Source: Nesterenkonia cremea (GTDB taxonomy: Bacteria > Actinomycetota > Actinomycetes > Actinomycetales > Micrococcaceae). Taken from it: a stretch of DNA of 64,000 nt. This document shows positions 121 through 19,327 of this stretch, one piece after another. The stretch is taken from positions 1-64,000 of the forward strand of contig NZ_BMIS01000013.1 of assembly GCF_014642675.1 (NCBI RefSeq), written 5' to 3'. The notes under the pieces were generated by a model. The model worked only from the letters and a program-made list of their open reading frames with translations. It had not been told where the DNA came from and did no database searches. Position 1 is the stretch's first letter, and the number at the start of each line of letters is the position of its first letter. A program made the position numbers and the translations under genes.

Positions 121-248
121 ATAGCCACTTAACGCGGGAAGCACATAACGCTGGGACAGCACTATCACGTCGCCACATAGAATTGAGGCCACTGTAGCTC
201 AAGGCCGATACAGTCTCGAACGACACCAGCCACACATCTAATTCCCAC

Positions 249-2828: not shown

Positions 2829-2962
2829 GGCACTCTTCGCCGAGACGTCCTTAAGCGTGATTTGCAGTACCTATATTAGGCGGAGCAGACTATGAGTAGG
2901 ACTGGGGCGATGCATATTCCGAAGTTCATGGATGATATGGATGATGCGAATCACCGTAGAAG

Positions 2963-3184
2963 TTGAGGTTGCTTTCGGTGCCCGACTGCGGGGCCCATAT
3001 CGCGGAGTTTGTCTATACCGCCTTCGTCACGGACGCTTACAGCCGTCGGATCGTCGGATGGGCCACCCACTCGACGATGACCACTGAGGCCCTCTCGCTG
3101 GAAGCTCTGGAGCATGCCCTGGCTACCGCCAAGCACCAGGATGATGCCCAGCTGGTGCATCATTCGGGCAGAGGCTCGCAGCCC
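2963..3184 (+). pseudogene. IS3-family transposase (OrfB) fragment, central part
   Basis: The translation holds the conserved IS3 integrase core around the first catalytic Asp (FVTDAYSRRIVGW) and the segment Ala-Gln-Leu-Val-His-His-Ser-Gly-Arg-Gly-Ser-Gln. It stops dead where the IS30 terminal repeat starts at 3185. No N-terminal half or OrfA is visible upstream. The rest of the same OrfB resumes near 5546, so this is one half of an IS3 element split by later insertions. Bases 2829-2962 hold no gene. Confidence 0.8.
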
Positions 3185-4636
3185 GGATTCAACTGGTCAT
3201 CGCAACATCTACTCAGGGAGGTGTTGTTATGGGTCGGCCAAAGGGATATACGACCTTCTATACCGGGCGCCCGGCGTTGCGGTCCCCGGGGCATCCTGGA
3301 GTCAGCCACAAGCGGTGGCGGCAACAGCGGTTCTGGGAAGCGATCGCCCGGGGCCATAGTAGCTACGGTGCAGCCGATGATGCGGGCGTGTCTACTGCGG
3401 TGGGGTCGCGGTGGTTCCGCGAAGCTGGCGGCATGAGACCATCGACCCTGGCCAGTGAGCCCTCGTCGCATTTCCTATCGTTTAGCGAACGTGAAGAGAT
3501 CGCTTTGCTCAGGGCCCAAGAGCACGGGGTCCGTGAGATCGCTCGTCGCCTCCAACGCTCAGCTTCAACGATCTCCAGGGAACTCCGCCGTAATGCGGCG
3601 ACCCGCAGTGGGCAATTCGAGTACCGGGCCTCCACAGCCCAGTGGCATGCCGAACGTAGCGCCAAACGTCCCAAGGCTGCGAAGCTGGTCCAGAATGAAT
3701 CGCTACGTGATTATGTCCAGCAACGGCTTGCCGGAGAAGTCACCGACGAATATGGACAGCAGCTTGGACCCGAGGTTGACAGTTTCAACGGCCGACGTCA
3801 CGGACCTCGCAAAGATCGCCGATGGGCTTCCTCCTGGAGTCCGGAGCAGATTTCGCAGCGGCTGATGCTGGACTTCCCTGATGATGAGGAGATGCGCATC
3901 TCACACGAAGCCATCTATCAAGCCCTCTATATCCAGGGCCGTGGTGCGCTCAAGCGTGAGCTGATCGCCTGCCTGCGTACCGGACGGGCACTGAGAACTC
4001 CTCGTGAGCGTGCTCGGCAACGTGGGAAGAAGTTCGTCACCGAGGATGTGAAGATCTCCCAGCGACCGGCAGAAGCTGCGGATCGTGCTGTTCCTGGCCA
4101 CTGGGAGGGCGACCTCATCCTCGGCTCCGGCAGTTCTGCAATCGGCACACTGGTCGAACGCAGCACCCGATTCACCATGTTGCTTCACCTGCCCAGGCTG
4201 AAGGGCTACGGAGAGAAGTTGAACCAGAAGAACGGTCCGGCGTTCGCCGGCCATGGGGCAGTCGCGGTGAATAGTGCCATTACGGCTCAGATCACTCACC
4301 TACCAGAGCACCTGCGGAAGTCCTTGGCGTGGGATCAGGGCGCGGAGATGGCAAAACATGCCGAGCTGAAGCTGGCCATCGGGATGCCGATCTATTTCTG
4401 CGATCCCAGCAGCCCCTGGCAGCGGGGCAGCAACGAAAACACCAACGGCCTACTGCGTCAGTACTTCCCTAAAGGCACGGACCTCTCTCGCTATGACTTC
4501 AATGCACTCCAGGCAGTAGCCCAGACGCTGAACTCCCGGCCACGAAAAGCACTTAGCTGGAAGACTCCTGCTGAAGTCTTCCAAGAACATCTAGACTCGA
4601 TCACGATCACAAGCGTTGCGACAACCGATTGAATTC
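3185..4636 (+). mobile_element. IS30-family insertion sequence, apparently intact
   Basis: The element is bounded by imperfect terminal inverted repeats of about 22 bases. The left end at 3185-3206 and the reverse complement of 4615-4636 agree at 17 of 22 positions. It contains one full-length transposase gene. The left flank is IS3 sequence and the right flank is IS110 sequence, so it lies at a junction. The three bases on each side do not match, so no target duplication is visible. A deletion next to the element after insertion would explain both facts. Confidence 0.85.
3229..4632 (+). CDS. IS30-family transposase
   Basis: 467 residues. The N-terminus has a helix-turn-helix typical of IS30 (EIARRLQRSASTISRELRRN, about residues 100-120). 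The DDE triad is intact: Asp295 in GHWEGDLI, Asp369 in AWDQGAEM and Glu403 in SNENTNG, a DD(33)E spacing. The C-terminal QYFPKGTDLS motif is also present. The ATG at 3229 has an AGGGAGG site eight bases upstream. Nothing in the reading frame suggests inactivation, so the enzyme may still be active. Confidence 0.95.
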   Translation: MGRPKGYTTFYTGRPALRSPGHPGVSHKRWRQQRFWEAIARGHSSYGAADDAGVSTAVGSRWFREAGGMRPSTLASEPSSHFLSFSEREEIALLRAQEHGVREIARRLQRSASTISRELRRNAATRSGQFEYRASTAQWHAERSAKRPKAAKLVQNESLRDYVQQRLAGEVTDEYGQQLGPEVDSFNGRRHGPRKDRRWASSWSPEQISQRLMLDFPDDEEMRISHEAIYQALYIQGRGALKRELIACLRTGRALRTPRERARQRGKKFVTEDVKISQRPAEAADRAVPGHWEGDLILGSGSSAIGTLVERSTRFTMLLHLPRLKGYGEKLNQKNGPAFAGHGAVAVNSAITAQITHLPEHLRKSLAWDQGAEMAKHAELKLAIGMPIYFCDPSSPWQRGSNENTNGLLRQYFPKGTDLSRYDFNALQAVAQTLNSRPRKALSWKTPAEVFQEHLDSITITSVATTD

Positions 4637-4638
4637 AC

Positions 4639-5517
4639 CGAGTCTCCAAGAATCCCAGTGCGGTTCAGATCGCAGCATCTGATGAGCAGGTCGCCGAGCT
4701 GGCGGTACTGACCGGGTTCGATGATGACCTACTGGCCCAGACCACCGCCGCCAGGAACCGGCTGCGCGGGCTGCTGACCCAGATCCACCCCGGCCTGGAA
4801 CGGGTCATCGGGCCACGGCTGCATCACTACGGGGCCCTGGATGTGCTGAGCAGGTGGCCTACTCCGCAGCGGATCAAAGACGCCGGCCGAGGCCATGTGC
4901 GCAACCGCATCACCAAACACAACCCACGGTTGGCTGAGCCACTCACTGAGGAGATCTTCGTCGCCTTGGCCGCACAGACTGTGGTAGTTCCCGGCACCGA
5001 GGCGGCAGCAACCATCGTGCCGATCATCGCCGGACAGCTGAAGGACCTGTACTCACAGCGCCAGCAGGTCCTGGCCCAGGTCGATGCCCTGGTGGAGGCC
5101 CACCCTCTTCGCCAGGTCCTGACCTCGATGCCCGGAATCGGGGTCAGGACCGCCGCCAGAATCCTCACCGAAGTCGTGGGTAAGGACTTCAAGACCGCAG
5201 GCCATCTGGCTTCCTATGCGGGGATCGCGCCGACCACTAGGCGTTCCGGGACCTCGATCAGAGGTGAATTCGCCAACCGCGGCGGCAACAAGAGATTGAA
5301 ATCATCGTTGTTCAACAGCGCCTTCGCAGCCCTGCACCACCGCCCATCCAGGGCTCACTACGACAAGAAGCGCGCCGAAGGAAAGACCCATAAACAGGCC
5401 GTCATCGCCCTAGCCCGCAGACGCCTGGATACCCTCTACGCGATGCTGCGTGATGGGACCTTCTACCAAGACCCAGAGACCATCAGAAGCGGAACCGGCC
5501 ACACCCTAGCGGCTTGA
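4639..5517 (+). pseudogene. IS110-family transposase, N-terminally truncated
   Basis: The frame is open from the edge of the IS30 element to a TGA at 5517. It carries the C-terminal IS116/IS110/IS902 domain, including the helix-hairpin-helix-like MPGIGVRTAARIL, the following YAGIAPTTRRSG and the nucleophilic-serine region. The N-terminal RuvC-like DEDD domain, roughly the first 100 or more residues, is missing because the IS30 right end cuts into it. The first internal ATG is at 4843, so any product would lack the catalytic acidic residues. IS110 elements lack long terminal repeats, so their outer end cannot be placed exactly; it lies between 5517 and about 5546. Confidence 0.88.
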
Positions 5518-5545
5518 CGAAAACCATAGAGGCACCCCGGCGAGA

Positions 5546-5794
5546 TCCACAGTCGACATTTATAGGAATATCAATGCTCTGGCCGACAGCACCAATGGTC
5601 TGTATAAGACCGAGCTGATCTACTCCCAGCCGGCCTGGGTTTTGTTGACGGAGGTGGACTGCGCCACATTGAACTGGGCCCACTGGCGGAACACTGCCAG
5701 GCTGCACGAGAACCTCGGGCAACAGCCCACGGCAGAAGTTGAGAACGCCTCCTATGAACAGCGAACCGAGTCCGCACCGAAATCTCGGGACTAG
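5546..5794 (+). pseudogene. IS3-family transposase (OrfB) fragment, C-terminal part
   Basis: The frame reads NALADSTNGLYKTELI, then WAHWRNTARLHENLG and a tail ending at TAG 5792-5794. This is the standard IS3 OrfB C-terminus containing the catalytic-Glu region. It continues the fragment that ends at 3184, with about 30 residues lost between the two. No start codon or ribosome site belongs to it. The stop codon overlaps the left end of the adjacent IS5-type element. Confidence 0.82.
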
Positions 5795-6756
5795 GGCATG
5801 TCTGACAAATATGTAGCGCCCGTCCTGCGAGACTGAGCAGATGTCGAGGTTCCAGCTGCTCTCCGATGCCCAGTGGTCGATGATTGCCGACATGCTGCCC
5901 CGCCCCACGGGCCGCAAGGGCAGGCCCTTCGCTGATGCGCGGACCATGGTCGAGGCGATCATCTACCGGTATCGGACCGGCATCGCCTGGCGCGATCTGC
6001 CCGAGGTCTTCGGTCCCTGGCAGACGGTCTGGACCTGGCACCGGCGCATGGCCGCCGAGGGCACCTGGGATCGGGTGCTGGAGCGGCTGACCGCCGCAGT
6101 CGACGAGGCCGGACAGATCGACTGGACGGTCTCGGTGGATTCGACGATCGCTCGTGCCCATCAGCACGCGACCAACGTCAGCCGCCACACAGGGGGCTGG
6201 ATCGAATTACACGAATCCGCAGACCCAACCCCAGAACCAGCCGGTTCCAGAACCGCCTGATCATGCCCTGGGCCGCTCGCGCGGCGGGCTCTCGACGAAG
6301 ATCCACCAGCTCGTCGACGGCCGCGGACTGCCGCTGGTGGTGCTGCTGAGTCCCGGTCAGGCCGGCGACTCGCCGATGCTTCTGCCGCTGCTGCAACAGC
6401 TGAAGGTCGGCCGCCGCCTCGGGCGGCCGCGGACCCGGCCGGATGGACTCTGCGGGGACAAGGCCTACTCCTCGCGGGCGATCCGTAAGCACCTACGCGC
6501 CAGGGGCATCATGGCCCATATCCCCGAGCCCGAGGATCAGAAGGGCCATCGCCTCCGGCGCGGATCAGCTGGCGGCCGGCCACCGAACTTCGACCCGGGC
6601 GCCTATCGCGGCCGCAATGTCGTCGAACGCCGCTACTGCCACATCAAGCAGTGGCGCGGGATCGCGACTCGCTATGACAAGCACGCGTTGACCTACCGGG
6701 CCGCGGTGGTACTCAACGCGGTGATCGCGTGGACCGCACATTTGTCAGACATGCCC
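5794..6756 (+). mobile_element. IS5-family (IS427-type) insertion sequence
   Basis: The first 17 bases, GGGCATGTCTGACAAAT, reappear as a perfect inverted copy at 6740-6756. The element is flanked by TA at 5792-5793 and TA at 6757-6758, a two-base target duplication typical of the IS427 group of IS5. It encodes a transposase in two overlapping frames. It inserted precisely at the IS3 stop codon and lies just downstream of the 3' end of the biosynthetic operon. Confidence 0.92.
5841..6260 (+). CDS. IS5-family transposase, OrfA (N-terminal part)
   Basis: The first frame starts at ATG 5841 and gives the DUF4096-type N-terminal domain (LSDAQWSMIADMLP, then YRTGIAWRDLPEVFGPW) and the first catalytic Asp in WTVSVDSTIARAHQHA. 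After a G run at 6192-6196 the reading continues in the next frame as OrfB. The residues beyond that point in this frame are not family-like, so the functional protein is the fusion. Such split reading is common in this IS group. Confidence 0.85.
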   Translation: MSRFQLLSDAQWSMIADMLPRPTGRKGRPFADARTMVEAIIYRYRTGIAWRDLPEVFGPWQTVWTWHRRMAAEGTWDRVLERLTAAVDEAGQIDWTVSVDSTIARAHQHATNVSRHTGGWIELHESADPTPEPAGSRTA

Positions 6757-6759
6757 TAG
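6154..6759 (+). CDS. IS5-family transposase, OrfB (C-terminal DDE part)
   Basis: The second frame supplies GRSRGGLSTKIHQLVDGRG, the second catalytic Asp in LCGDKAYSSRAI and the Glu in RNVVERRYCHIKQWRGIATRYDK. The family-like sequence begins at about 6197, directly after the G run, so the ATG at 6154 is probably not used. A +1 (or -2) shift in the G run joins OrfA to OrfB in frame. The stop is inside the right terminal repeat. Confidence 0.85.
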   Translation: MPISTRPTSAATQGAGSNYTNPQTQPQNQPVPEPPDHALGRSRGGLSTKIHQLVDGRGLPLVVLLSPGQAGDSPMLLPLLQQLKVGRRLGRPRTRPDGLCGDKAYSSRAIRKHLRARGIMAHIPEPEDQKGHRLRRGSAGGRPPNFDPGAYRGRNVVERRYCHIKQWRGIATRYDKHALTYRAAVVLNAVIAWTAHLSDMP

Positions 6760-6794
6760 ACCCAGGACGGTCCAAGAGCACGATCACGAGCAAG

Positions 6795-8042
6795 TTACCG
6801 GCACTTTTGTTGAAGAGCAGCTGCCTCTTTCTGAAAACGTTGCGTCAGTTCGCCACCAGGGGCGACACACACCACACCCACAAGCTCGCACGACGCGTAG
6901 AACCTCATCAGTACGCCACTCTCAAGGTCATCGACGTCGCCAACCGCGACCTCTGATGTGTCCGAAGAAGCAACATTCCCCATAGTCTGCACGCGGAGGC
7001 CAAACACCTCAGTCGTAGCCAAGTGAATATGCGATAAACTCTTACGTCTAGCACGGCCCCCCAAGAAATCCACCACCGATGAACCAGCTGCGTCCCCGCT
7101 CGTCACGGCGCTCCCCCACAGTTCCGCACGCGAAGTAGCCCTTTTCGCACACGCACAGGAATATCGCGCCACATCGCCTGCTGCGAAAACACCCTCATAC
7201 GCCCTACAACGGAGATCGCCGTCCACAAGCACACCATCTGACACATCGATCCCGTTGCCACTCAGCCATTCAACGTTGGGCACACTTCCGATCGCTTCCA
7301 GCATCAGAGCACGCTCACGAACACCAGAACCGCTCCCGGTCATCGCCGCAGGAGCCACACGGTCAGAGCAACTGTCAACCAGTGATTCCACATCGCGGAA
7401 GCTAACGCCGTAAGCGCGCATCCTCTCTCTTATCGACGCAGCAAGACGTTCACCCACGACCCTCCGCAGAGGTGCACCCGATCGACTCTCGACCATACTC
7501 ACTTCGCAGCCAAAAGCAATCGCCAAGGAGGCCATCTCACACGCGATAAAACCGTTCCCCCGCACCACAACCCTTCGGCCCTTACGGAGCGCGTGATGCA
7601 GGGCAGCCGCATCACCGACATCGCGTAAAACCCGGTGCTCGTGCCGCCCACATCGCGTCGCTGCAAAACCACTCTCTCGTGGCCGAACACCAGATGCGAT
7701 AACCAGGACGTCATACTCGAGACGCTCACCCGAGTCCAAGCACAACTCGCGCCCAGACAAGTGTGCCGAGAGAACACGCCGCCCCAATCGCCACTGTAGG
7801 CGTGAGTCTGTCAAATTCGGTACCGACAGTTGCGCCGCCAGGTCAGCTGTCCCCTCGTCGAGGTCCAGTAGGATTCCTTTCGACAAACCCGGACGACTGT
7901 ATGTAGGATACAGTTCCTCTCCGATAACAACAACCTCAACATTATCGTAGGATCTCAATATTTGACGTGCTGCCCGGTATCCAGAAATTCCACTTCCCAC
8001 AATGCAAACGCGAGGACAGTCACGGACAAATTCATTCATCAT
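6795..8042 (-). CDS. FAD-dependent ferredoxin reductase for the operon's P450
   Basis: About 415 residues of the pyridine-nucleotide-disulfide oxidoreductase fold. An FAD dinucleotide motif lies at the N-terminus (VCIVGSGISGYRAA). A second Rossmann motif for NAD(P)H is in the middle (VVVRGNGFIACEMASLA). The late FAD contact GVFAAGDVARY is present. Such proteins pass electrons from NAD(P)H to ferredoxin. The start overlaps the 3' end of the ferredoxin gene: a TTG and two ATGs lie in a row, and I took the ATG at 8042. It is the last gene of the operon, and with the ferredoxin and P450 it makes a complete three-component monooxygenase. The IS5 right end lies 38 bases beyond its stop. Confidence 0.9.
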   Translation of the reverse strand: MMNEFVRDCPRVCIVGSGISGYRAARQILRSYDNVEVVVIGEELYPTYSRPGLSKGILLDLDEGTADLAAQLSVPNLTDSRLQWRLGRRVLSAHLSGRELCLDSGERLEYDVLVIASGVRPRESGFAATRCGRHEHRVLRDVGDAAALHHALRKGRRVVVRGNGFIACEMASLAIAFGCEVSMVESRSGAPLRRVVGERLAASIRERMRAYGVSFRDVESLVDSCSDRVAPAAMTGSGSGVRERALMLEAIGSVPNVEWLSGNGIDVSDGVLVDGDLRCRAYEGVFAAGDVARYSCACAKRATSRAELWGSAVTSGDAAGSSVVDFLGGRARRKSLSHIHLATTEVFGLRVQTMGNVASSDTSEVAVGDVDDLESGVLMRFYASCELVGVVCVAPGGELTQRFQKEAAALQQKCR

Positions 8043-8226
8043 CAACGACGGTTATGGCCTGCATCGGGCACGCATCCATCGCGTCTTCCACGTCGTCCAA
8101 AAAATCCCGAGTGAATTCCGAGCGGTAGCTCAACCGGCCCTCTTCGTCGAACCAAAAATGGCCTGGAGCTGAGATGGCGCACTGACCGTGGTTCTGACAT
8201 TTACTCATATTTACATCGATTCTCAT
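8032..8226 (-). CDS. [3Fe-4S]-type ferredoxin
   Basis: 64 residues, the usual size of P450-associated ferredoxins. The ligands run Cys10-x2-His13-x2-Cys16 with a distal Cys53-Pro. The His replaces the second Cys of a CxxCxxC motif, as in the actinobacterial P450-partner ferredoxins, which predicts a 3Fe-4S or an unusual His-bearing cluster. It lies 11 bases after the P450 gene and overlaps the reductase gene. It should shuttle single electrons to the P450 at 8238-9452. Confidence 0.92.
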   Translation of the reverse strand: MRIDVNMSKCQNHGQCAISAPGHFWFDEEGRLSYRSEFTRDFLDDVEDAMDACPMQAITVVDDE

Positions 8227-8237
8227 GCATACACTCC

Positions 8238-9452
8238 TTACTCGACCGAATTCCTGCGCTCAAACGTAATCGGCATATATGAAGCTCCTGTGTTACCCGA
8301 GTCAGGCAGCCAATCAGTGTCCGCACCAACACGGACATTCGTAATGCGTCCCGCGAGAGCAGCCAATGCGACACCGATATCCGTACGCGCAACAAAGTGA
8401 CCTAAACAATGATGGACACCACCTCCGAAGGCAAAGTGCGGAGATCGTTCAGCGTCCAAATCGATATCGCAGGGATTATTAAACTCGGCAGGATCTGTTC
8501 CCCCGGTCAAAGTATAAAGATGAACGGTGGTACCCTCCTCGATCCATCGCTCTCTGTGCTGAAACGACTCCGTTGCCTCTCGCGTCACCCATCTACCAAT
8601 CGGATTCACTCGCAGCGCCTCTTCAACTGCACGTTCCGCGTAATGATACGGATGGCGTGCCAGCTTGTCCCATTGATCAGGCTGTTTCTGAAAGGAGTCG
8701 ATAGACAGCGACAACTGGTGTCGCGTGGTGTCGATGCCAGCAAAGATTAGGAGAATGACAATATTGACTAGCTCCTGTCTCGACAGAGAACGATCGTCCT
8801 CACGATTCGCTCCCAGAAGAGTGCCAAGCAAATCGTCCGTAGGAGCAGCCTCACGTTCCGTGATCAGCCCTTCCGCATAAACAGTCAGTTCATTTACGGC
8901 AGCGTCAATGCTAGCAATATGGTCACCAACGTGCACTCCAAGTCCCAGCCCAATAGTCGATGCAAGCTCCTGAATATGATGCCAGTCTGACTCGTCAATA
9001 CCCAGCATCATGCAGAGAATTCTAGTGGCGTACGGTGACGCGAATTCACTGGCAAAATCAACTTCACCGCGGTGAATCCAACTGCCGATAAGCTCGCGAG
9101 CCAGTTCTTCAAATTTCGGCTCCATGGCCCGCACTTTTCGTCGCGAGAACGCAGGATTGACCAAGCGGCGAATCCTATGATGATCGTCTCCTTCTAGAAC
9201 GAGAAGGTTCTGACTCCACCACTCATGAAATTGGCCGCTTGACACACCATGCTGCCTAGGCCATTTCGCCGACCCCTGGCCCATGTATGGAGAATGCAAT
9301 AGATGAGTATTGTCCTCATAAGAGAGGACTGCGATACCCCAATCTGTCTCTGCGTACCAGTGAGCGTCACGAGCTTCTCGGACTTCCTTAGAATTCATGC
9401 GAAACTCTTCGGATGCGATATCCAGTTTGACGGGTGTTCCCAGTTTACTCAT
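8238..9452 (-). CDS. cytochrome P450 of the diaminobutyrate/ACP operon
   Basis: 404 residues from the ATG at 9452, chosen because a GGAGGGAGAAG site lies upstream; the longer frame to 9503 lacks one. All P450 marks are present: the I-helix AGIDTT acid-alcohol pair, ExxR in VEEALRVNP, and the heme loop FAFGGGVHHCLGH with Cys349. It is a soluble bacterial class I P450 with no membrane segment. It follows the EctB-like gene by 68 bases and precedes its ferredoxin and reductase. The substrate is unknown. Because an ACP and ligase share the operon, hydroxylation of a carrier-bound acyl or aminoacyl group, as with some NRPS-associated P450s, is a reasonable inference. Confidence 0.95.
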   Translation of the reverse strand: MSKLGTPVKLDIASEEFRMNSKEVREARDAHWYAETDWGIAVLSYEDNTHLLHSPYMGQGSAKWPRQHGVSSGQFHEWWSQNLLVLEGDDHHRIRRLVNPAFSRRKVRAMEPKFEELARELIGSWIHRGEVDFASEFASPYATRILCMMLGIDESDWHHIQELASTIGLGLGVHVGDHIASIDAAVNELTVYAEGLITEREAAPTDDLLGTLLGANREDDRSLSRQELVNIVILLIFAGIDTTRHQLSLSIDSFQKQPDQWDKLARHPYHYAERAVEEALRVNPIGRWVTREATESFQHRERWIEEGTTVHLYTLTGGTDPAEFNNPCDIDLDAERSPHFAFGGGVHHCLGHFVARTDIGVALAALAGRITNVRVGADTDWLPDSGNTGASYMPITFERRNSVE

Positions 9453-9520
9453 GTGACTTCTCCCTCCATACCAGGTATTCAAGCTTGATGACCTTTTGCG
9501 CACAGCTCCATCCTCACGAG

Positions 9521-10795
9521 CTAGAACGCTGTACTCTCACGGCAAACGCGCAAAATTACGTCCGCGATAGCAGTAACTCCCTTATTTAGGTCTTCGGACT
9601 CCATGGTTAGCGCCGGCAGCAATTTCAATACCTGACCACGATCGCCCGCAGTTTCCACGAGGATTCCCGCGGCGAACAGTTCACTTGCCACCCATGCAGT
9701 CACGTCTGCGGCGCCAAGGTCGATGCCCAGCAACTGTCCTTTTCCACGAACTTGAAAGCGGTCCGCGATTCCCGAGTCCACGAGAATGTTCGTCACCAAG
9801 TCCTCGCGATCCCTCGTTCGCTGGGCAAGAACGTCATCAGACCAGTACTTTCTGAGGCAAGCCGTCGCAGTGACAAAAGCCGCGTTATTACCACGAAACG
9901 TTCCGTTGTGCTGACCGTCTTGCAAGTCATAGGCCGGGTCCACCAGTAAGATCGACAGAGGGAGCCCGATGCCACTCAACGATTTCGATAGTGTCACCAT
10001 GTCGGGGCGCAGATCATAGTGCTCAAATGAGAAAAATCGCCCGGTTCGTCCACATCCGGTCTGGATCTCGTCGACGATCAAAGGTACCCCATAGCGGTGA
10101 CAAATCAACTCAACACCCTGGGCCCATTCTCGGGAGGCAACGTGCACGCCACCTTCACCTTGCACGAGCTCCATCACCACACAAGCAGGCCGTTCCGACT
10201 CTGGGCATTCTAAGAAATGAGCGCGCTCCAACCAGTCGAGCGCCTCCCCTGGCTCCTGAGATGGGCTATCAAAAGGAACTAGGGTGGCATCGGTGAGAGG
10301 TACACCTGCAGCCGATCGCTTGGCACCGTTAGATGATAGAGCGAGGCTGCCAAGGCTCACTCCGTGGAAACCTCCAGTGAACGCGAGTGCGCGAGTTCGC
10401 CCAGTGGCGAGACGGGCACACTTGAGGGCAGCTTCGATGGCGTTGGTACCTGTAGGGCCAGTAAACATCGCGCGATAACCAGCCAGGTCACGAGGACCCA
10501 GCACTAAGTCGTACAACTCTCTAAGAAATTCCAAACGAGCATCTGTCTGCATGTCCAGGGACTGCAAGATTCCGTCCTCAGACAGGTAGTCCACGAGCGC
10601 CCTCTGCGCGCAAGGATCGTTGTGCCCGTAGTTGAGTGATCCCGCGCCTGAGAAGAAGTCGAGGTACTCGCGTTCATTCGACCAAATCCGGGAACCACGG
10701 GCACGACTGAACACCGCTGGCCACTCTCGGGAGTATGACCGTACTTCCGATTCGTTCAGATGCCCGACATCAACGGGCGCCGATGTAGCTGTCAT
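9521..10795 (-). CDS. diaminobutyrate-2-oxoglutarate aminotransferase (EctB-like)
   Basis: 424 residues, the normal EctB length, class III aminotransferase fold. Conserved stretches include DFFSGAGSLNYGHN, the phosphate-binding GPTGTNAIEAA, VDEIQTGCGRTG with Asp242, and the PLP lysine Lys271 in TLSKSLSG, followed by GTFRGNNAAFVTA. These match EctB over nearly the whole length. The expected reaction is L-aspartate semialdehyde plus glutamate to L-2,4-diaminobutyrate. The gene sits between the ACP and the P450 in the operon. No ectoine synthase is present, so the diaminobutyrate is presumably used for a different product. Confidence 0.9.
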   Translation of the reverse strand: MTATSAPVDVGHLNESEVRSYSREWPAVFSRARGSRIWSNEREYLDFFSGAGSLNYGHNDPCAQRALVDYLSEDGILQSLDMQTDARLEFLRELYDLVLGPRDLAGYRAMFTGPTGTNAIEAALKCARLATGRTRALAFTGGFHGVSLGSLALSSNGAKRSAAGVPLTDATLVPFDSPSQEPGEALDWLERAHFLECPESERPACVVMELVQGEGGVHVASREWAQGVELICHRYGVPLIVDEIQTGCGRTGRFFSFEHYDLRPDMVTLSKSLSGIGLPLSILLVDPAYDLQDGQHNGTFRGNNAAFVTATACLRKYWSDDVLAQRTRDREDLVTNILVDSGIADRFQVRGKGQLLGIDLGAADVTAWVASELFAAGILVETAGDRGQVLKLLPALTMESEDLNKGVTAIADVILRVCRESTAF

Positions 10796-10822
10796 ACTTA
10801 TCCTCCATCCTCGGGCACTACT

Positions 10823-11071
10823 TCAGACCCTCACGGGAATCGATCTGTTCAGGAACTCGATGAAGGAACCAACTGTTTGGAAGTCATCGATTTCGAGATC
10901 ATTTGGATCGACTTCAAGGGCACTGTGATCCTCAATTTCCATGAGCACTTCCAGAGAACTTGTTGAGTCCAGTCCGATGTCGTCAATGAGTCGTGCATCA
11001 TTTTCGAACGGAAACTCTTCATTTCCTGTGACGGCGACGATCGCGTCCCAGAGCAGCTGACGATTGTTCAC
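10823..11071 (-). CDS. acyl carrier protein
   Basis: 82 residues, acidic, four-helix carrier pattern. The phosphopantetheine attachment site is Ser36 in DIGLDSTSSLEVLMEIE. It is free-standing, not fused to a synthase module. It lies four bases after the adenylate-forming ligase and 27 bases before the EctB-like gene, and a holo-ACP synthase is encoded upstream in the same operon. It is therefore most likely a dedicated carrier for the acid activated by the ligase, not the fatty-acid ACP. Confidence 0.92.
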   Translation of the reverse strand: MNNRQLLWDAIVAVTGNEEFPFENDARLIDDIGLDSTSSLEVLMEIEDHSALEVDPNDLEIDDFQTVGSFIEFLNRSIPVRV

Positions 11072-11075
11072 TTTT

Positions 11076-12518
11076 TTACATCCTTTCGAGTTCGTTGATA
11101 TCGACTTTACCGTTTTCAGTCAAAGGAAGACTGTCCATCCGTTTAATGGTCGCCGGGATAGCGTAAGCGTCCAGTTGTCCCCGCATCGCATCCTTGACCT
11201 CGTCAATTGTCGATCGGCCTTCATAAAACAACGCATAGCGACTCGTGTCTGATGGCGGCACGACCGCCGCGCTGTCGACATTCGGAGCGCTGTAGGCCGC
11301 AGCCAAAACTTCATCAGCGCTAACTCGATAGCCCTGAACCTTAAACTGTCCATCGGATCGGCCGCGACAGTGCAGATAGCCATCGTCATCAATCCAACCA
11401 ATGTCACCTGTGCGCAGAAGCACGCGATCACCGAGGGCCACAAAGCGTTCCGCCGTGAGCTCCGGCTGTCGGTGATATCCGTTCATCACGTGGGGACCCT
11501 CAATACAGATCTCGCCACTTTCACCGTTGCTGACGACCTCAAGACTCTCTGGAACTCGGATCGTGACAGCAGTTCCCGTTAGAGGACGTCCGACTGCCTC
11601 CAGGCGCTCGTAGGACTCTCCCTCGGGCATAATGGCGACACGCTTGCATTCGGTGAGGCCGTACATCACACGTAGGTCCACGGCGCCTCCCCAACTCCGC
11701 TCGATCGCCAGCCGAGTCTCCGCGTTCATAGCCGCCCCAGTAGTTGAAATCTGTCGAACACGGTGCGAGCGGAGTCCCCGCTTGATCAAGCGAACCAGCT
11801 TTTCCGCGGCGGGCGGAACCATCGGGAGAATCGTTGCGCCAGTCCGCTCGAGCAAGTCAGACAAGCCCATGGAGGACTCCAGCTCAGTGGCAAAGTAGAG
11901 CGAAGCGCCATTGCGAGCAGCCAGAAAGACCTGATAGAGCCCAAAGTCGAAAAATATGGGCAGGGCCGTCACTACCACGTCACTCGGTCGGTACTGCAGC
12001 GCCTCATCGATCGCCTGAACCGCAAACGTCACGCTCTTCCGAGAACACACCACCGCCTTCGGCATACCCGTGCTCCCCGAGGTATAGATCAGGCAAGCGA
12101 CGTCTGCCGGGTCGCCAACGGTCGTCCATGGCTCCGACGCACATTCGATTGACTCGAGGCTCGGGCGGACCGCCCGGTTTCCTGGAAGGCCCCGTTCCAC
12201 TACACGATCTCGCACCAACAGGTCAGATCCTGAATCCTCACACAAATAGTGAAAACGCGCCTCAGGTGTGGACCCACTGATAGGGACGAATGGCTTACGA
12301 ATACTTAGGCAAGCCAAGACGGCGACTCCCGCACTGATGCTATCGGCCTGGATCATGCACGGACGATCTGGCGTCGCCACCTCCCGCATGCGATCAGCCA
12401 GCTCTTGCGCCGCCTCAAATACTTCTCTGTATGTGTGTGACTCCGTTGCATTGCTGAGAAACACCTTGTCAGGATTGGCCTGAGAGGCCACCAACAGCGA
12501 ATCGTACAGATCCATCAC
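11076..12518 (-). CDS. adenylate-forming acyl/aminoacyl-ACP ligase
   Basis: 480 residues of the AMP-binding superfamily. The P-loop IYTSGSTGMPKAV is at residues 145-157, the A5 motif reads MYGLTE, the A7/A8 region is LLRTGDIGWIDDDGYLHCRGR, and the catalytic lysine Lys471 lies in LTENGKVDINEL. It is stand-alone, without a condensation or carrier domain. It should activate a carboxylic acid as the adenylate and transfer it to the ACP encoded four bases downstream. The start is GTG 12518 or ATG 12515; both overlap the stop of the hotdog gene. The acid specificity cannot be read with confidence; an amino acid is likely from the context. Confidence 0.9.
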   Translation of the reverse strand: MMDLYDSLLVASQANPDKVFLSNATESHTYREVFEAAQELADRMREVATPDRPCMIQADSISAGVAVLACLSIRKPFVPISGSTPEARFHYLCEDSGSDLLVRDRVVERGLPGNRAVRPSLESIECASEPWTTVGDPADVACLIYTSGSTGMPKAVVCSRKSVTFAVQAIDEALQYRPSDVVVTALPIFFDFGLYQVFLAARNGASLYFATELESSMGLSDLLERTGATILPMVPPAAEKLVRLIKRGLRSHRVRQISTTGAAMNAETRLAIERSWGGAVDLRVMYGLTECKRVAIMPEGESYERLEAVGRPLTGTAVTIRVPESLEVVSNGESGEICIEGPHVMNGYHRQPELTAERFVALGDRVLLRTGDIGWIDDDGYLHCRGRSDGQFKVQGYRVSADEVLAAAYSAPNVDSAAVVPPSDTSRYALFYEGRSTIDEVKDAMRGQLDAYAIPATIKRMDSLPLTENGKVDINELERM

Positions 12519-12922
12519 GCACGTCCTCGTACTCTCTGAGCTGCGCCCATGGGAATGACAACTTTTGCGCGTGCCGACGCCACGACTTCACCGACTTGAT
12601 CCCAAGCGATCGCAGCGGACTCCCGACTCTCATCCGACACGAGGTACCCCTGGCGTCTGGCGACGACATCGTAGGTTCGCGACAGCCGCGTACGATCGAC
12701 CCGGTGGCAATGAACTGCCAAGAAGTCGCCTGGATGGATCTGCTCTCTGAAGTCGACCCCTTCATAAGCTGCAAGCAGACCCTCATCGCCATCATCTCTG
12801 CAAGTCACAAAAGTTATAGCATCGCCAAATAGACGCAGAACGAACGCACCGTCGACCAGGTCGTTTGCATAGTGGACTTCGCGACTGCTCACACGTACCA
12901 TAAGGACCTTATCCGAATTCAT
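12515..12922 (-). CDS. hotdog-fold protein, 3-aminobutyryl/beta-alanyl-CoA ammonia-lyase-like
   Basis: 135 residues. The conserved pattern is HYANDLVDGA, LRLFGD, DGDEGLLAAYEGVDF and HPGDFL. From memory this follows the small hotdog enzymes that add or remove ammonia at the beta carbon of acyl-CoA thioesters (Kal and Acl) better than it follows thioesterases. The ATG at 12922 has a GAGAGGAAGG site upstream and overlaps the 3' end of the holo-ACP synthase gene by 14 bases; the longer frame to 12961 lies fully inside that gene. If the family assignment holds, it could convert a beta-aminoacyl thioester to the alpha,beta-unsaturated thioester or back, here perhaps on the ACP. A thioesterase or hydratase role remains possible. 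Confidence 0.75.
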   Translation of the reverse strand: MNSDKVLMVRVSSREVHYANDLVDGAFVLRLFGDAITFVTCRDDGDEGLLAAYEGVDFREQIHPGDFLAVHCHRVDRTRLSRTYDVVARRQGYLVSDESRESAAIAWDQVGEVVASARAKVVIPMGAAQRVRGRA

Positions 12923-13253
12923 TCGCCTTCCTCTCCAATGCCACAGCAAGAGCAAACCCATCCGAGTGTGATATCGCTATCCAGAAACTGCGTCCTTGAT
13001 ACTCGGCAAACGGTTTGCCTTCAGATGTCCAATGCAACTGGACGTCATTCGGTCGGATACGCTGCCTAAATCCACGACCAATCGACTTCATTACAGCCTC
13101 CTTGGCGCAGATCGCTCCAGATATGCTTTCACTCCTATTCGCACGTGTGGATATATAGTCAAGCTCACTGGGACGGAACCAGAAAGACGTAAACCAGCGC
13201 CGTTTTACCATTCTGTCCACTCGAGCGACCGATATAATGTCGATTCCCAGCAT
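12909..13253 (-). CDS. holo-[acyl-carrier-protein] synthase (AcpS type)
   Basis: 114 residues, the usual AcpS length. The metal- and CoA-binding motif GIDIISVARVD begins at residue 3 and the second motif ICAKEAVMKSIG follows at about residue 50. It transfers phosphopantetheine from CoA to a serine on the carrier protein. The ATG at 13253 follows a GGAGG site and the N-terminus then matches the family; the frame upstream overlaps the decarboxylase and is not AcpS-like. It is an operon-borne copy with island base composition, presumably specific for the neighbouring ACP; the housekeeping copy should be elsewhere. Confidence 0.93.
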   Translation of the reverse strand: MLGIDIISVARVDRMVKRRWFTSFWFRPSELDYISTRANRSESISGAICAKEAVMKSIGRGFRQRIRPNDVQLHWTSEGKPFAEYQGRSFWIAISHSDGFALAVALERKANEFG

Positions 13254-13281
13254 CACTCCTCCATCACCGTTGTAGTAGAGA

Positions 13282-14469
13282 TCAAACCACCACTTCGGTT
13301 GGGTAGTCATGCCCCAGGAACGAGTGAGGTGAGGCGCTCGGCCCGTAAGCCCCAACGTTGTCAAGCACGACCAGATCGCCGCGCTTTGGGACCATAGACC
13401 ACTGAACGTCCTTAAGCAGTACATCGTCTGGTGTACACAGCGGGCCTGTCACAGTCACTGGTTGATCCCCGGCTTCGAGCTTCGCCGTGCTATCACCATC
13501 GAAACGCACGCACCAACTTGGGAAATTTCTCTTCCCTATCCCCCCGACGCCAATCGCGGCCATATTTAGGTTAGTTCCACCGTCGCATACACAAAATCGT
13601 GTTCCGTACGAGGTTTTCGTGGTAAGCACTTGAAGTACGAGACGTCCGCACTCCGCAGTAAGATAGCGGCCTGATTCAAACGCCAGTTCGGCTTTGGGGA
13701 ACCATGCTCTGGCCTGTTTGATGCAGTCAATAATTCCTGTCTTCAGTAGATTGAGATCAAGGTCGCTTTCAACTCCAAAGTAGGGAATGCCAAATCCGCC
13801 ACCCATATCGAGCATCCGCAGCTCGAGATCAGTCTCCCGTTGAATCTCTCTGGCGTCTTCGAGTATACTCTTTGTATTCTGGACCAGGTCGGAGGCCTCT
13901 AGGAATCGTGTACCCAAGTAATAATGCAGGCCCACTACGTCTAATCCTAGCTTCCTCGCCCGGCCAACGAAGTTTCCAACTTGCGCTCTTTCAACTCCGA
14001 ACTGCTTGGGCTTTCCCCCGCTCATAGTCAGCTTCCCGCCACTCGCCTCGAAGTCTGGGTTCACACGAAGCAGGATCTCGCGCACCGTAGTCTGTTCACT
14101 CAGCAGCTGCAGTTCATCCTCACTGTCCACAACGAAGTATTGAATCCCCACCTCGGAAGCGCGACGCAGTTCTTCAACCGTCTTTCCGGGACCAATAAAG
14201 ATGATGTCAGTTGGGCTATAGCCAGCTTCAAGCGCGCGCTCCAACTCTCCCTTAGAGGCTACCTCGACCCTGCATCCAGCTTTTCTCAGCGTCTCCACCA
14301 CGTGTTTATTCGGGTTAGCTTTAAGCGAATAGTAGAGTGCCGCTCCGCCAAGCGCGTCCTGCAGAGAAACTGCCTGTGATTGCAGGACTTTCGTGTCGTA
14401 TATGTAGAGAGGAGTGCCATATTTCCTCACCATGTCCTCAATGTGTCTGGGATCGCGATGTGGGTTCAT
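13282..14469 (-). CDS. PLP-dependent decarboxylase, alanine-racemase fold (LysA/BtrK-like)
   Basis: 395 residues of the fold-type III decarboxylases. The PLP lysine is Lys50 in YYSLKANPN, the phosphate loop GGGFG is at 223-227, and the catalytic Cys345 lies in GPLCTPDDVL. The C-terminus GAYGPSASPHSFLGH is the version found in the branch that includes BtrK (acts on glutamyl-ACP), VinO and siderophore enzymes, not in typical diaminopimelate decarboxylase. Its first base overlaps the EctA-like stop (ATGA). The ACP and ligase in the same operon suggest that it decarboxylates a carrier-bound amino acid; free diaminobutyrate or its acetyl derivative are alternatives. Confidence 0.88.
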   Translation of the reverse strand: MNPHRDPRHIEDMVRKYGTPLYIYDTKVLQSQAVSLQDALGGAALYYSLKANPNKHVVETLRKAGCRVEVASKGELERALEAGYSPTDIIFIGPGKTVEELRRASEVGIQYFVVDSEDELQLLSEQTTVREILLRVNPDFEASGGKLTMSGGKPKQFGVERAQVGNFVGRARKLGLDVVGLHYYLGTRFLEASDLVQNTKSILEDAREIQRETDLELRMLDMGGGFGIPYFGVESDLDLNLLKTGIIDCIKQARAWFPKAELAFESGRYLTAECGRLVLQVLTTKTSYGTRFCVCDGGTNLNMAAIGVGGIGKRNFPSWCVRFDGDSTAKLEAGDQPVTVTGPLCTPDDVLLKDVQWSMVPKRGDLVVLDNVGAYGPSASPHSFLGHDYPTEVVV

Positions 14470-14951
14470 ACAATTGGGCCTAGTCTGATCAACTTTTCAT
14501 CGTGTTCAAGTTGATGGAAGTCGGCTGCATCGAAGAGGATGCTTTGTTCGCTTTCCACCCCGAGCGATCGGGCCAACAGTCTGAACTGCATCGCAATCGC
14601 GCGGTTCTCAGGGTCAATCGTTGCTTCTACGTAGTTCAAGTTCGTAGTCATCTGCACAGAATTGATGAGCTGCTCGAGCAGCTTCAGGCCGAGATTTGTT
14701 ACACCGTGGTTGAGGGTCGTCGCTGTTTGCCAAAGGAACAGCGTGTCGGGTGCGCCCGGTCGGATATATCCGGTGACAAATCCAGCGAGTTCGTTGTCTA
14801 CATCCACGACCATGCTCGTAGTTTCAAAGTCGCGAAAGAAGATCGCATAGTAATACCAGCTGTTGTCATCGAGCATATGTGTCTCTGCCACCAGTTGGTG
14901 CACTGCTGAAGCGTCGTGCACGCTCGGCGTTCGGTAATGCACTTCGGGCAT
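14466..14951 (-). CDS. diaminobutyrate N-acetyltransferase (EctA-like GNAT)
   Basis: 161 residues, GNAT fold. The segment LDDNSWYYYAIFFRDF, then GFVTGYIRPGAPDTLFLWQ, is the EctA pattern, with the distal HVTP-like region (EATIDPENRA) and LFDAADF also matching. EctA acetylates the gamma-amino group of 2,4-diaminobutyrate with acetyl-CoA. A usual acetyl-CoA loop appears altered (TLNHGVTNLGLKLLEQL instead of an RGxG loop), which could change activity or donor choice. A strong AGGAGGTG site lies seven bases before the ATG. It is the first gene of the ten-gene operon and its stop overlaps the decarboxylase start. Confidence 0.88.
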   Translation of the reverse strand: MPEVHYRTPSVHDASAVHQLVAETHMLDDNSWYYYAIFFRDFETTSMVVDVDNELAGFVTGYIRPGAPDTLFLWQTATTLNHGVTNLGLKLLEQLINSVQMTTNLNYVEATIDPENRAIAMQFRLLARSLGVESEQSILFDAADFHQLEHDEKLIRLGPIV

Positions 14952-15684: not shown

Positions 15685-16575
15685 TCAGCTCTTGCGGTTG
15701 TAGAGCACCATGGAGATCGGAGCGAAGATCACCACGAGAGCCACGCAGTAGATCATGACCGTGAAGACGCTGGTGACGTCGTAGACCCCGTCCATCAGCT
15801 CGCGGATGGCAGTGACCACCACGGAGACCGGGTTGTGGTCCACCACGTTCTGCAGCCAGTCCGGCATGGTCTCCGTGGGGACGAAGATGTTCGAGGCGAA
15901 GGTCAGCGGCATCATGATCGTCATGGACACACCCATCACCGCCTCCTCGGTGGGCAGCAGCAGGGAGATGGTGGTCCACACCCAGGAGAGGCAGAAGCTG
16001 AAGATCAGCAGCAGGAGGAATCCTGCGGCCGCTCCGCCCAGCCCGCCCTCGGGGCGGAAGCCCACCAGGAAGCCCACACCCAGGATGATCGCCCCGGCCA
16101 GGGCGTAGCGCACCTGGTCTCCCAGCAGCGCGCCCACCAGCTGCGCCGGCCGCCAGGTGGGCAGGGAGCGGAAACGATCGAAGATGCCCTTGGAGATGTC
16201 CTTGTTCAGGGTCATCCCGGTGTACATCGTGATCATGATCAGCGTCTGCACGAAGATTCCGGGGATGAAGAACTGGACGTATTCGCTGATGGCCACCCCA
16301 CCGGTCTGGCCGGTGCCGGAGACCACCGCACCCATCGCTCCGCCGAAGATGTAGGTGAACATCACCGTCATGATGATCGGGAAGATCGTCACGTCGAAGA
16401 GCTGGGTGGGGATGTGCTTGATCTTCAGCATCGCCCGCCAGCCGAAGGTGAGCGATGCGCTCACCGGATTGGACGGCGTCGGGCGCTCCTCCTCGCTCAG
16501 CAGGACGCCGAGCACCTTCTGGGATTCTGAGGCGGTGGAGCCGAGGCCCGCCTGCTGTGTGGTCTGGGCGCTCAT
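15685..16575 (-). CDS. ABC-2 type exporter permease (DrrB-like)
   Basis: 296 residues with about six membrane helices and the ABC-2 permease pattern ([20 protein letters not shown], then [17 protein letters not shown], and late [15 protein letters not shown]). Partners with the ATPase encoded upstream, whose stop overlaps this start (ATGA). DrrAB-type pairs expel hydrophobic drugs or lipids. The substrate is unknown. It is the first core-chromosome gene after the island. Confidence 0.9.
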
Positions 16576-17576
16576 GCGGAGGCCTCCTCGGTCTCGTAGT
16601 CGGCAGCCTCGTCCTGGGCCGCCTCATCCTCTGTGGGCTTGCCGGTCAGGGCGAGGAAGACCTCGTCCAGGCTCGGCTGACCCAGGGCAAAGGTCTCGAC
16701 GCCGATGCCGGCCTCCTCCAGGGCGGCCAGTCCGGCGGAGGCACCTTCGGCGGCACCCAGCCGGGCACTCAGTGCGGCGGTGTCCTTCTCGCGGGTGAAC
16801 TCGGTGTTCAGCGCAGTGCGCAGAACCTCGGCGGCCTCCTCGCGGTCGGCCGGGTTGATGACGCGCACCTTCAGCGCGCCGGAACCCACCTGGGCCTTGA
16901 GCTGGCCCGGTGTGCCCTCGGCGATGACCCGGCCGTGGTCGATCACGGCCAGGCGGTCGGCCAGCTGGTCGGCCTCCTCCAGGTACTGAGTGGTCAGCAG
17001 GATGGTGGTGCCGCCGTCCACCAGGGTCCGGATGATGTCCCAGACCTGGTTGCGGGAGCGCGGGTCGATGCCGGTGGTGGGCTCGTCCAGGAACATCAGC
17101 TCCGGTGTCACGATCAGCGACCCGGCGATGTCCAGGCGGCGGCGCATACCGCCGGAGAACTTCTTGACCTGGCGGTCGGCCGCCTCGGAGAGCCCGAAGG
17201 CCTCCAACAGATCCAGGCCGCGACGCCGGGCCGCCGCCTTGGAGAAGCCGAGCAGCCGGCCCAGCAGGATCAAGTTCTCGATGCCGGTCAGATCCTCATC
17301 CAGGGACGCGAACTGGCCGGTCAGCGCGATCTTCTCGCGGATGGTCTTGGGCTCGGCGAAGACGTCGTGGCCCAGCACTCGGGCCTCACCCGCATCCGGG
17401 CGCAGCAGGGTGGCGAGCATGCGGATCGCGGTGGTCTTGCCGGCACCGTTGGGGCCCAGCACACCGTAGATCCCGCCGCGCGGGATGGTCAGGTCGACGC
17501 CGTCCACCGCGACGTTGTCCCCGAAGGTCTTGACCAAGCCACGCGTCTCGATGGCAGGAGCAGGTGAAGGATTCAT
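16572..17576 (-). CDS. ABC exporter ATP-binding protein (DrrA-like)
   Basis: 334 residues. Walker [10 protein letters not shown], signature [15 protein letters not shown], Walker [13 protein letters not shown], plus a C-terminal DrrA-type extension ending in an acidic tail. The ATG at 17576 begins just before the usual N-terminus; the frame extends to 17711 but that part is not conserved-looking and overlaps the divergent promoter region. Energises export through the downstream permease, with which it overlaps by four bases. Confidence 0.93.
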
Positions 17577-17683
17577 GCTGTCAAGGATAATGCGCCTGCA
17601 ACACTTCTTCGCCCTCGGCTGAACAGAGTTCCCCGTTGAGTCATCTGGCTCTGCGATCTCAGCCCATCCATAGAGTGGCCGCC

Positions 17684-19327
17684 ATGGAACAGAACCCCAC
17701 CTCACCCGCATCTGAGAACGCCGAAAGCGCCTCTTCTCCGCAGCCTCGCAGCCGAGTCGACCGCCGCTCCTTCCTGCTGGGCGGACTGAGCGCAGCCGGC
17801 GTCGCCGCCCTGGGCGTGGGCGGATACGCCGCCGTCCGCAGCCGCAGCGAGGACCCGGCCGCCTACGCCGAGGAGTTCGCCGAAGGCCGGGCGGTGCTCT
17901 TCCGCAACGCCACCGTGGTCACCGGGGACGATGATCTGGGAACCCTCTACGAGACCGACGTCCTGGTGGACGACGGAGTCATCCAGGACGTGGGGCATGA
18001 GCTGTCCCGTCCTGACGACGCCGCCGTGATCGAGGCCGGCGGTGCGGTGCTGATGGCAGGGATGATCGACACCCACCGGCACATGTGGCAGTCCGTGCTG
18101 CGCGGCGTGGGCGGAGATTGGACCATCAGCAACTACTTCCAGTGGATCTACGAGGAGTGGGGCGAGCTGTGGCGCCCCGAGGACGTCTACGCCGGCAACT
18201 ACCTCTCCATGGTCGAGGCGATCGACTCCGGAGTGACCACCTCTCTGGACTGGTCCCATGGCCTGCGCTCCCCCGATCACGCCGATGCCGCAGTGGACGC
18301 CCTGGTGGCCTCCCGCGGACGAGCACGCCTGGCCTACGGGAACATCTTCGACCTTCCGCAGAACTGGGTCCCCGGCGGCGATGTCCAGCGGCTGCTGGAT
18401 GAACGCTTCCCCGCCGCCTTCGACTCCGTGGACGATCTGGTCACCATGCAGCTGGCCTGGGACGGCGGCGGCGAGGACCCAGAGTTCCCCGAGCGCCCGG
18501 CCTGGGAGTTCGCCCAGGAGCACGGTCTGCCGGTCACCCTGCACGCCGGGGTCTGGGGATATCCGCTGGACATCGCCATCCAGAACATCAGCGAGAACGG
18601 CTTCCTGCACCCCACCAACACCTACGTCCACGCCGCCTCCCTGCAGACCAGCACCTATGAGCTGATCGCTGAGTCCGGCGGAGACGTCTCCATCTCAGCG
18701 GAGTCCGAGCTCAACGCCGGTCAGGGCTACCCGCCCACCGGGCAGGTCCGCGAGCACGGCATTCCGATCTCGCTGTCCATGGACACCTCACTGTGGTGGA
18801 GCGGGGACATGTTCGCCGCGATGCGGGCCACGCTCAATGCCGACCGCGGACTGGACCACATGAATGCCCATGAACAGGACAGGACTGTGCTCAACAATGA
18901 GCTGCGCACCGCAGATGTGCTTCGCTACGCCACCCAGGGCGGCGCCGATGCCCTGGAGATGGGTTCGGACCTGGGATCCATAACCCCGGGGAAGGTGGCA
19001 GACCTGGTCCTGCTCCGGGCAGACACTGCCTCGATGCTCCCGGTGAACGATCCCACCCACCACATCGTCTTCCAAGCCGGCCGGGCCGAGGTGGATTCGG
19101 TGATGATCGGTGGGCGCATGATGAAGCATGCCGGACGCCTGATCCCGGCCGCCCTCGGCCTGGAGGAGGACGGCGACGACGATGCCGACGCGGTCCTGGA
19201 GCACGCCCGCAGCCTGGCCGAGGACTCACGGGACCACCTGCGGGAGCAGATCGGCGAGGAAGCCTGGGAGGGGGCGGTGAACCCGCCGGAGTATGAGACG
19301 GAGGAGGCCGATCACTCCATGGAGTGA
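17684..19327 (+). CDS. Tat-exported amidohydrolase (ATZ/TRZ-like)
   Basis: 547 residues. A twin-arginine signal [21 protein letters not shown] lies at about residues 29-49, after an N-terminal tail. The mature part is an amidohydrolase barrel: [10 protein letters not shown] (HxH metal site), [17 protein letters not shown] and the late Asp in SLSMDTS. The family hydrolyses or deaminates ring and chain C-N bonds, for example in guanine, cytosine or triazines. Secretion of such an enzyme is unusual. The ATG at 17684 was preferred to the upstream frame start at 17636. It is divergent from DrrA. The C-terminal 60 residues are very acidic. Confidence 0.85.

Follow-up and report, generated by a model that had tools for sequence, protein, structure and literature searches.

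What might an operon make that joins ectoine enzymes to a carrier-protein pathway? We examined this for a ten-gene operon at positions 6795 to 14951 of contig NZ_BMIS01000013.1 of Nesterenkonia cremea (assembly GCF_014642675.1), of which the first 64,000 nucleotides were analysed and are called the window below. A reading made from the letters alone (the sequence-only reading) had proposed that it combines ectoine-type diaminobutyrate synthesis with decarboxylation of a carrier-bound amino acid and a complete cytochrome P450 system. Our analysis points to an ectoine-type pathway in which acetyl coenzyme A (acetyl-CoA) may have given way to an acyl group built on, and supplied by, a dedicated acyl carrier protein (ACP), a reading to which we give an even chance.

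The genes are open, co-directional and tightly packed, with no internal stop codons and with intergenic gaps of −14 to 68 bases when the P450 start is set at 9452, an ATG read off the sequence upstream of the called frame. In the order of transcription they are as follows (PLP, pyridoxal phosphate).

14466 to 14951, minus strand: EctA-like GNAT acyltransferase, 161 aa, TIGR02406, with the CoA P-loop motif replaced by NHGVTNLG
13282 to 14469, minus strand: PLP decarboxylase, BtrK-like, 395 aa, with Pfam, NCBIfam and PDB matches
12909 to 13253, minus strand: AcpS-type phosphopantetheinyl transferase, 114 aa, start taken as the ATG at 13253
12515 to 12922, minus strand: hotdog protein, relative of beta-alanyl-CoA and 3-aminobutyryl-CoA ammonia lyases, 135 aa
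11076 to 12518, minus strand: AMP-forming ligase, VinN-like, 480 aa, retaining Asp and Arg of the VinN pocket, with Thr in place of Ser
10823 to 11071, minus strand: free-standing ACP, 82 aa, LDS site
9521 to 10795, minus strand: EctB-like diaminobutyrate transaminase, 424 aa, Pfam and NCBIfam
8238 to 9452, minus strand: cytochrome P450, 404 aa from the ATG at 9452, heme motif FGGGVHHCLG
8032 to 8226, minus strand: single-cluster ferredoxin, 64 aa, Pfam
6795 to 8045, minus strand: FAD/NAD(P)H ferredoxin reductase, 416 aa, Pfam and NCBIfam

The expected Pfam families were found for seven of the proteins (all but EctA, EctB and the hotdog protein), and Pfam and NCBIfam together agree with the gene labels given before, from EctA to the reductase, including a P450 with its own ferredoxin and reductase. 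The earlier description of ten co-directional genes with overlaps or gaps of at most 68 bases likewise held, and the stop codons that it had named as a possible sign against the operon were looked for in all ten frames and were absent.

The acyltransferase carries the evidence for a change of acyl donor. It scored 128.7 against the TIGR02406 cut-off of 120.6, and its predicted fold (pLDDT 92.8) had EctA chains as its 11 best matches, at TM 0.79 to 0.89, followed by a different GNAT. EctB exceeded the cut-off of NF006733 (499 versus 438 bits) and fell below that of TIGR02407 (475 versus 552). These family scores and the EctA fold bear out the proposed EctB/EctA-type diaminobutyrate chemistry. 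The P-loop of GNAT enzymes binds the pyrophosphate of CoA. The CoA loop motif R/Q-x-x-G-x-G/A was present in 19 of 20 other EctA proteins, 12 of them picked by family score irrespective of neighboring genes, whereas it was found in none of 28 cluster EctA proteins; all 28, the window's included, have HG[IV]xxLG in this region. The lone exception among the other EctA proteins was the window genome's own canonical EctA (RFRGRRLA). The loop set excludes L111, which duplicates L012, as well as L115, which is the window, and the decayed fragment L116. Because the motif has been lost, an ACP-bound acyl group is the likely EctA donor, and the simplest reading is that the cluster EctA would take its acyl group from acyl-ACP and not from acyl-CoA. 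The window thus shares EctB and EctA homologues with the ectoine pathway, the cluster EctA being without the CoA loop motif, and the cluster adds to that pathway a ligase, an ACP, AcpS, a decarboxylase, a hotdog protein and a P450 system.

Where would the acyl group come from? The ligase, ACP and PLP decarboxylase had been likened to the trios of VinN-VinL-VinO and BtrK type, and PDB matches and pocket residues confirmed the likeness. VinN was the best PDB match to the ligase family profile (E 3.6e-141). Of its pocket residues, the cluster ligases keep Asp in 28 of 28 rows and Arg, which we take to contact the substrate's second carboxylate, in all 27 readable rows, with Ser changed to Thr. 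Passages of PMC11284099 have the Asp of VinN-type pockets contact the substrate amino group, and describe FlvN as accepting aspartate and VinN as preferring 3-methylaspartate. The ligase residues make an aspartate-like carrier-bound amino acid more likely than diaminobutyrate; of the earlier proposal for the carrier substrate, the carrier-bound amino acid therefore stands and diaminobutyrate becomes the less likely identity. Published passages on vicenistatin and AFC-BC11 biosynthesis have aspartate-type substrates decarboxylated on the carrier, and those in PMC12186527 have aspartate loaded and then decarboxylated to beta-alanine on the carrier by AfcQ, AfcK and AfcP.

A VinN-like ligase with an Asp/Arg pocket, a free ACP and a PLP decarboxylase are common to the operon and to VinN-VinL-VinO, FlvN and AfcQ-AfcK-AfcP. 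Unlike those systems, the operon has a hotdog lyase relative and an EctA-type transferase in place of polyketide synthase (PKS) or peptide assembly, and no PKS gene was found among its ten genes. The closest PDB match of the decarboxylase was BtrK of butirosin biosynthesis (E 6e-67), whose PDB name refers to glutamyl-[BtrI]; the next group followed at 5e-42, and lysine and ornithine decarboxylases at 5e-23 or weaker. Butirosin differs in its ligase, BtrJ being an ATP-grasp ligase and the cluster's being VinN-like.

Three other roles for these proteins were set aside: decarboxylation of free diaminobutyrate, given the gap between BtrK and the lysine and ornithine decarboxylases; ordinary fatty acid synthesis by the ligase and ACP, given the VinN-type pocket; and an exosortase-associated ligase and decarboxylase, for which scores fell short of the cut-offs (206.8 against 592.35 bits for TIGR03098 and 294.9 against 478.45 for TIGR03099).

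The hotdog protein would give the decarboxylation unit a next step, the predicted deamination of a beta-alanyl thioester. It had no Pfam match. It matched the family of 3-aminobutyryl-CoA ammonia lyase (KAL), NF052388, at E 1.9e-25, and its sole PDB relative under E 1e-3 by sequence was the beta-alanyl-CoA:ammonia lyase 4mtu of Clostridium propionicum (E 6.4e-19), which also came top in the fold search (4.2e-9; next, 2.6e-6). It thus has its fold in common with 4mtu and KAL, together with several motifs, the stretches HY, LVxGA, GD and DGD being shared with 4mtu. Linkage or fusion to AcpS or the decarboxylase sets the cluster hotdog protein apart from those enzymes; its substrate is thus presumably bound to ACP and not to CoA. 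Among 27 related loci (described below), 17 have it in a single open frame with AcpS, and the two proteobacterial ones have it joined in this way to the decarboxylase; such fusions are annotated as single proteins in the records of L002, L003 and L006. Two independent clues, an aspartate-type ligase and a relative of a beta-alanyl lyase, thus converge on beta-alanyl-ACP, with acryloyl-ACP expected next.

A possible if less probable explanation is that the hotdog protein is not a lyase but a thioesterase, an editing protein or a binding protein, in which case EctA would move a beta-alanyl or 3-aminoisobutyryl group to give an aminoacyl-diaminobutyrate. Of the 49 fold matches listed below 4mtu, almost all carry annotations as thioesterases or acyl-CoA hydrolases; the window's protein lacks a Glu that is otherwise conserved, and passages of PMC11284099 and PMC12186527 have FlvN- and AfcQ-type systems reach beta-alanine with such a lyase unmentioned. 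Its only close PDB relative by sequence, and the motifs shared with it, argue for the lyase.

Is this gene set peculiar to one genome? A single scan of genome_contigs with a hotdog alignment gave 66 loci, which were then mapped with family profiles; a tblastn search of plasmids with the hotdog protein gave 10 records, of which 5 were opened (H3, H4, H5, H7 and H10 were left out). EctA, decarboxylase, hotdog protein, ligase and ACP stood together in 23 of the 66 loci and in 4 of the 5 plasmid loci. These 27 loci, on plasmids and chromosomes, span two phyla (Streptomyces, Lentzea, Halosaccharopolyspora, Pseudovibrio and Rhizobium), and with the gene set recurring in 27 other loci, the operon is no chance assembly. 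P450 and EctC were both present in 7 of the 23, P450 without EctC in 3, and 13 had no P450. The remaining 43 comprised 35 with the hotdog gene only (several on short contigs, two also with a weak or distant ligase match), 6 without ect genes and 2 cut by contig ends.

The clusters fall into three classes. Class A (9 loci) has, in order, decarboxylase, AcpS-hotdog, ligase, ACP, EctB, EctA, P450, ferredoxin, reductase and EctC. Class A2 (3 loci, in S. lavendofoliae, S. sennicomposti and S. capoamus) has no EctC and carries a LysE gene after the P450, with ferredoxin and reductase upstream on the opposite strand. Class B (15 loci, including Rhizobium gallicum and Pseudovibrio exalbescens) lacks P450, always has EctC, and has EctB in 7 of 15. 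One locus, L049, has frameshifts along its whole length, and some positions in it could not be read.

The recurrence bears on whether the two halves of the operon might work apart, one giving ordinary acetyl-diaminobutyrate or ectoine against osmotic stress and the other a beta-amino acid unit put to some other use. That EctA passes the NCBIfam cut-off, and that six loci combine decarboxylase, ACP or ligase with the hotdog gene in the absence of ect genes, would be consistent with such a split. With both halves together in 27 loci of two phyla, ectABC already present in the genome and the CoA loop motif lost throughout the cluster EctA proteins, we consider it very improbable.

The six ect-less loci (L028, L029, L032, L038, L039 and L041) carry the hotdog gene and AcpS with decarboxylase/ACP or ligase; L038 has KAS III-like as well as ATP-grasp proteins, L032 the former and L029 the latter. 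The acyl-ACP unit of these loci may serve other pathways. Hotdog lyase relatives without other cluster genes (L040, L042 to L048, L050 and others) come from very diverse records, with titles that include Nitrosopumilus, Halanaerobiales, Myxococcales and Modestobacter.

With P450 and LysE present and EctC and EctD absent, the window is nearest to class A2. Its P450 is 64 to 65% identical to those of L033 and L034, whereas its decarboxylase, ligase, hotdog protein, ACP, EctA and EctB are only 36 to 48% identical to theirs; between L033 and L034 themselves, identity is 88% for the decarboxylase, 93% for EctB and 85% for the P450. Similar tailoring genes thus accompany a deep-branching core, suggesting an oxidized product of the same kind. 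Searches for closer relatives of the decarboxylase in 30 genomes of the genus (E limit 1e-40), 396 of the order (1e-70) and 396 of the phylum (1e-70), with at most four candidates per genome scored in the latter two, returned only the window's own each time.

Absence of EctC, part of the sequence-only reading, holds for the window cluster and is no mark of the family: EctC is present in 24 of the 27 related loci, the three without it being class A2. On the window's contig no EctC was found at E values up to 1, and profiles of EctC, EctD and LuxR regulators gave nothing significant in window positions 1 to 7000. EctD-like hydroxylases were found in 13 of 29 mapped loci: 9 of 9 in class A (only the end of the gene lies within the stretch in L019), 0 of 3 in A2 and 4 of 15 in B. 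The window thus has neither of these enzymes of the ectoine/5-hydroxyectoine pathway. A single open frame at L027:14220-15905 covers both EctA and an EctD-like hydroxylase and may be a natural EctA-EctD fusion.

Could ring closure be supplied from outside the cluster? The window genome has one intact EctC, inside a separate ordinary ectABC, and each A2 genome has one (E 1e-5), beside an EctB elsewhere in the genome. As 8 of the 15 class B loci have no EctB, such clusters can apparently draw on the ect pathway of their host. An uncyclized product is equally possible in the window, since EctC and EctD are missing together from both A2 and the window. A decayed ectC (G000:C7:1635-1902, L011) and an ectA remnant (G000:C13:82961-83230, L116) lie near contig ends and are perhaps parts of one broken older ect operon.

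The cluster limit placed at 6795 by the sequence-only reading had to be revised, as LysE and CGNR genes common to relatives lie at 1455 to 2828. The features on that side are as follows (HTH, helix-turn-helix).

249 to 1337, minus strand: weak HTH-domain protein of low G+C, possible cluster regulator
1455 to 2060, minus strand: CGNR zinc-finger protein (regulator), about 60 to 62% identical to those beside Streptomyces P450-type (class A) clusters
2139 to 2828, plus strand: LysE-type exporter, 56 to 58% identical to the post-P450 gene of the class A2 loci L026, L033 and L035
3229 to 6759, plus strand: transposase-type genes (HTH_38 protein, IS110-type and IS4/5-type), between the two cluster parts

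The cluster spans from about 1455, perhaps 249, to 14951, past 6795 and with the transposase genes in between. No homologue of the HTH gene was found among the mapped related loci. Directly upstream of the operon, at 15685 to 17711, lies a DrrA/ABC-2-type exporter pair of host-like G+C.

The lower G+C reported before was confirmed: the operon genes have a G+C content of 0.49 to 0.58 against about 0.67 for the contig, and a third-position G+C content (GC3) of 0.50 to 0.62 against 0.84 to 0.90 in five neighboring genes. Together with the rarity in the genus and the adjoining transposase genes, this deviant composition makes the cluster look foreign and horizontally acquired. The same setting could mean that the operon is a decaying fragment that lost EctC, EctD and other genes when the insertion elements arrived and now has no product. 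Transposase genes do separate the two cluster parts, all nine class A loci have EctC after the reductase plus an EctD-like gene, and of 30 genomes of the genus only the window's own has the decarboxylase at E 1e-40. We regard decay as unlikely: the frames of the operon's ten genes, and of the three at 249 to 2828, are all open, and EctC and EctD are likewise lacking from three Streptomyces loci that share the LysE type, the only EctC of their genomes lying beside an EctB elsewhere.

Starting from the observed gene content and its recurrence, the homologies, the loss of the CoA loop motif and the foreign composition, we infer the following route for the switched ectoine pathway, in which every reaction, the identity of the acyl group, the order of steps, ring closure and the function are predictions. 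AcpS would arm the ACP, and the VinN-like ligase would load L-aspartate on it via the beta-carboxylate. The BtrK/VinO-like PLP enzyme would take off the alpha-carboxylate to give beta-alanyl-ACP, from which the hotdog protein would probably remove ammonia to give acryloyl-ACP. EctB would supply L-2,4-diaminobutyrate, whose 4-amino group would receive the ACP-bound acyl group through the altered EctA. Where the cluster has an EctC, as in most relatives, this enzyme would then close the tetrahydropyrimidine ring, yielding an ectoine with vinyl in place of methyl; in the window the ring would be closed by the host ectABC enzyme or stay open. P450, ferredoxin and reductase would oxidize the product, and LysE would export it. 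A variant through fumaroyl-ACP, with deamination before decarboxylation, was set aside by reasoning only, as the PLP enzyme needs the amino group. The statement that the operon matches no known pathway agreed with our literature searches of open-licence papers, few subscription journals included, in which no description of the cluster family or of the whole pathway was found.

Several points weigh against this route. Loss of a P-loop motif is no proof of acyl-ACP use. The hotdog protein scored 89.5 bits against the NCBIfam KAL cut-off of 160, and the Glu that it lacks, one of a T-E pair present in 4mtu and most relatives, is also missing from both proteobacterial hotdog proteins. The window ligase taken alone matched a linear gramicidin synthase chain (1.1e-79) better than VinN (2.5e-67), and VinN's preference for 3-methylaspartate makes a methylated acyl group possible. 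The window itself contains neither EctC nor EctD. At the positions examined, class B EctC agrees with the canonical enzyme. In class A EctC, P. lautus position 38 is Ser in 9 of 9 rows (His in 15 of 15 class B and 8 of 8 canonical rows), the Trp beside Tyr52 is replaced by Cys in 9 of 9, and the metal ligand Tyr84 by His in 8 of 8 readable rows; with residue roles taken from passages of PMC6344544, ring closure may not be the job of the altered enzyme. Finally, the window proteins other than the P450 are only 31 to 49% identical to those of the five relatives compared, and the window decarboxylase is a lone long branch (end branch 6.53) in a tree that gave no placement.

Further matches bear on the possible function of the product. 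The best PDB match of the window P450 is 3p3l, presumably AurH. A LuxR-like regulator family was present in 18 of the 29 mapped loci, and MFS exporter families were present in 15 and 7 of them, a setting that fits specialized metabolism; one or two members of each neighbor family were checked against Pfam. An AlkZ/YcaQ-like crosslink-repair DNA glycosylase lay near 3 of 12 P450-type loci (L006:18514-19692, L034:18126-19328 and the left end of L022), two of which share a neighborhood; the copy in the window genome lies on a different contig. In 10 Streptomyces genomes, about 84 Mb in all, there were 34 matches, some being fragments of a single gene; at this rate about 0.1 would be expected in twelve 20-kb loci, against the 3 observed, two in the same setting. 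These genes hint weakly, and are suggestive only, at DNA damage and self-resistance to a DNA-alkylating product. That the product is an N-acryloyl-diaminobutyrate or vinyl-ectoine oxidized by the P450, perhaps to a DNA-alkylating epoxide against which an AlkZ-type glycosylase protects some producers, is a speculation that we think improbable in this full form.

What is new here is a variant that joins two already known modules, an ectoine-type one and a carrier-protein beta-amino acyl unit. Ectoine enzymes count as markers of protection from osmotic stress, and genes like these are labeled to match by automatic annotation; in these clusters they seem to belong to a mobile and probably specialized pathway with a carrier protein as the acyl donor. 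The role of orphan EctC proteins is left open in passages of the 2018 review PMC5924519, which report for R. gallicum ect genes plus an orphan ectC. On R. gallicum plasmid NZ_CP017102.1 (25348 to 29844, L002), we found an ectC without ectB inside this type of cluster, possibly that same orphan. If true, the proposed pathway would explain what some orphan EctC proteins, at least, are for, would provide an acryloyl-ACP route that starts at aspartate, would make EctA enzymes usable for new ectoine analogues, and would correct misleading labels in these loci, such as ectoine synthase, alanine racemase and diaminopimelate decarboxylase.

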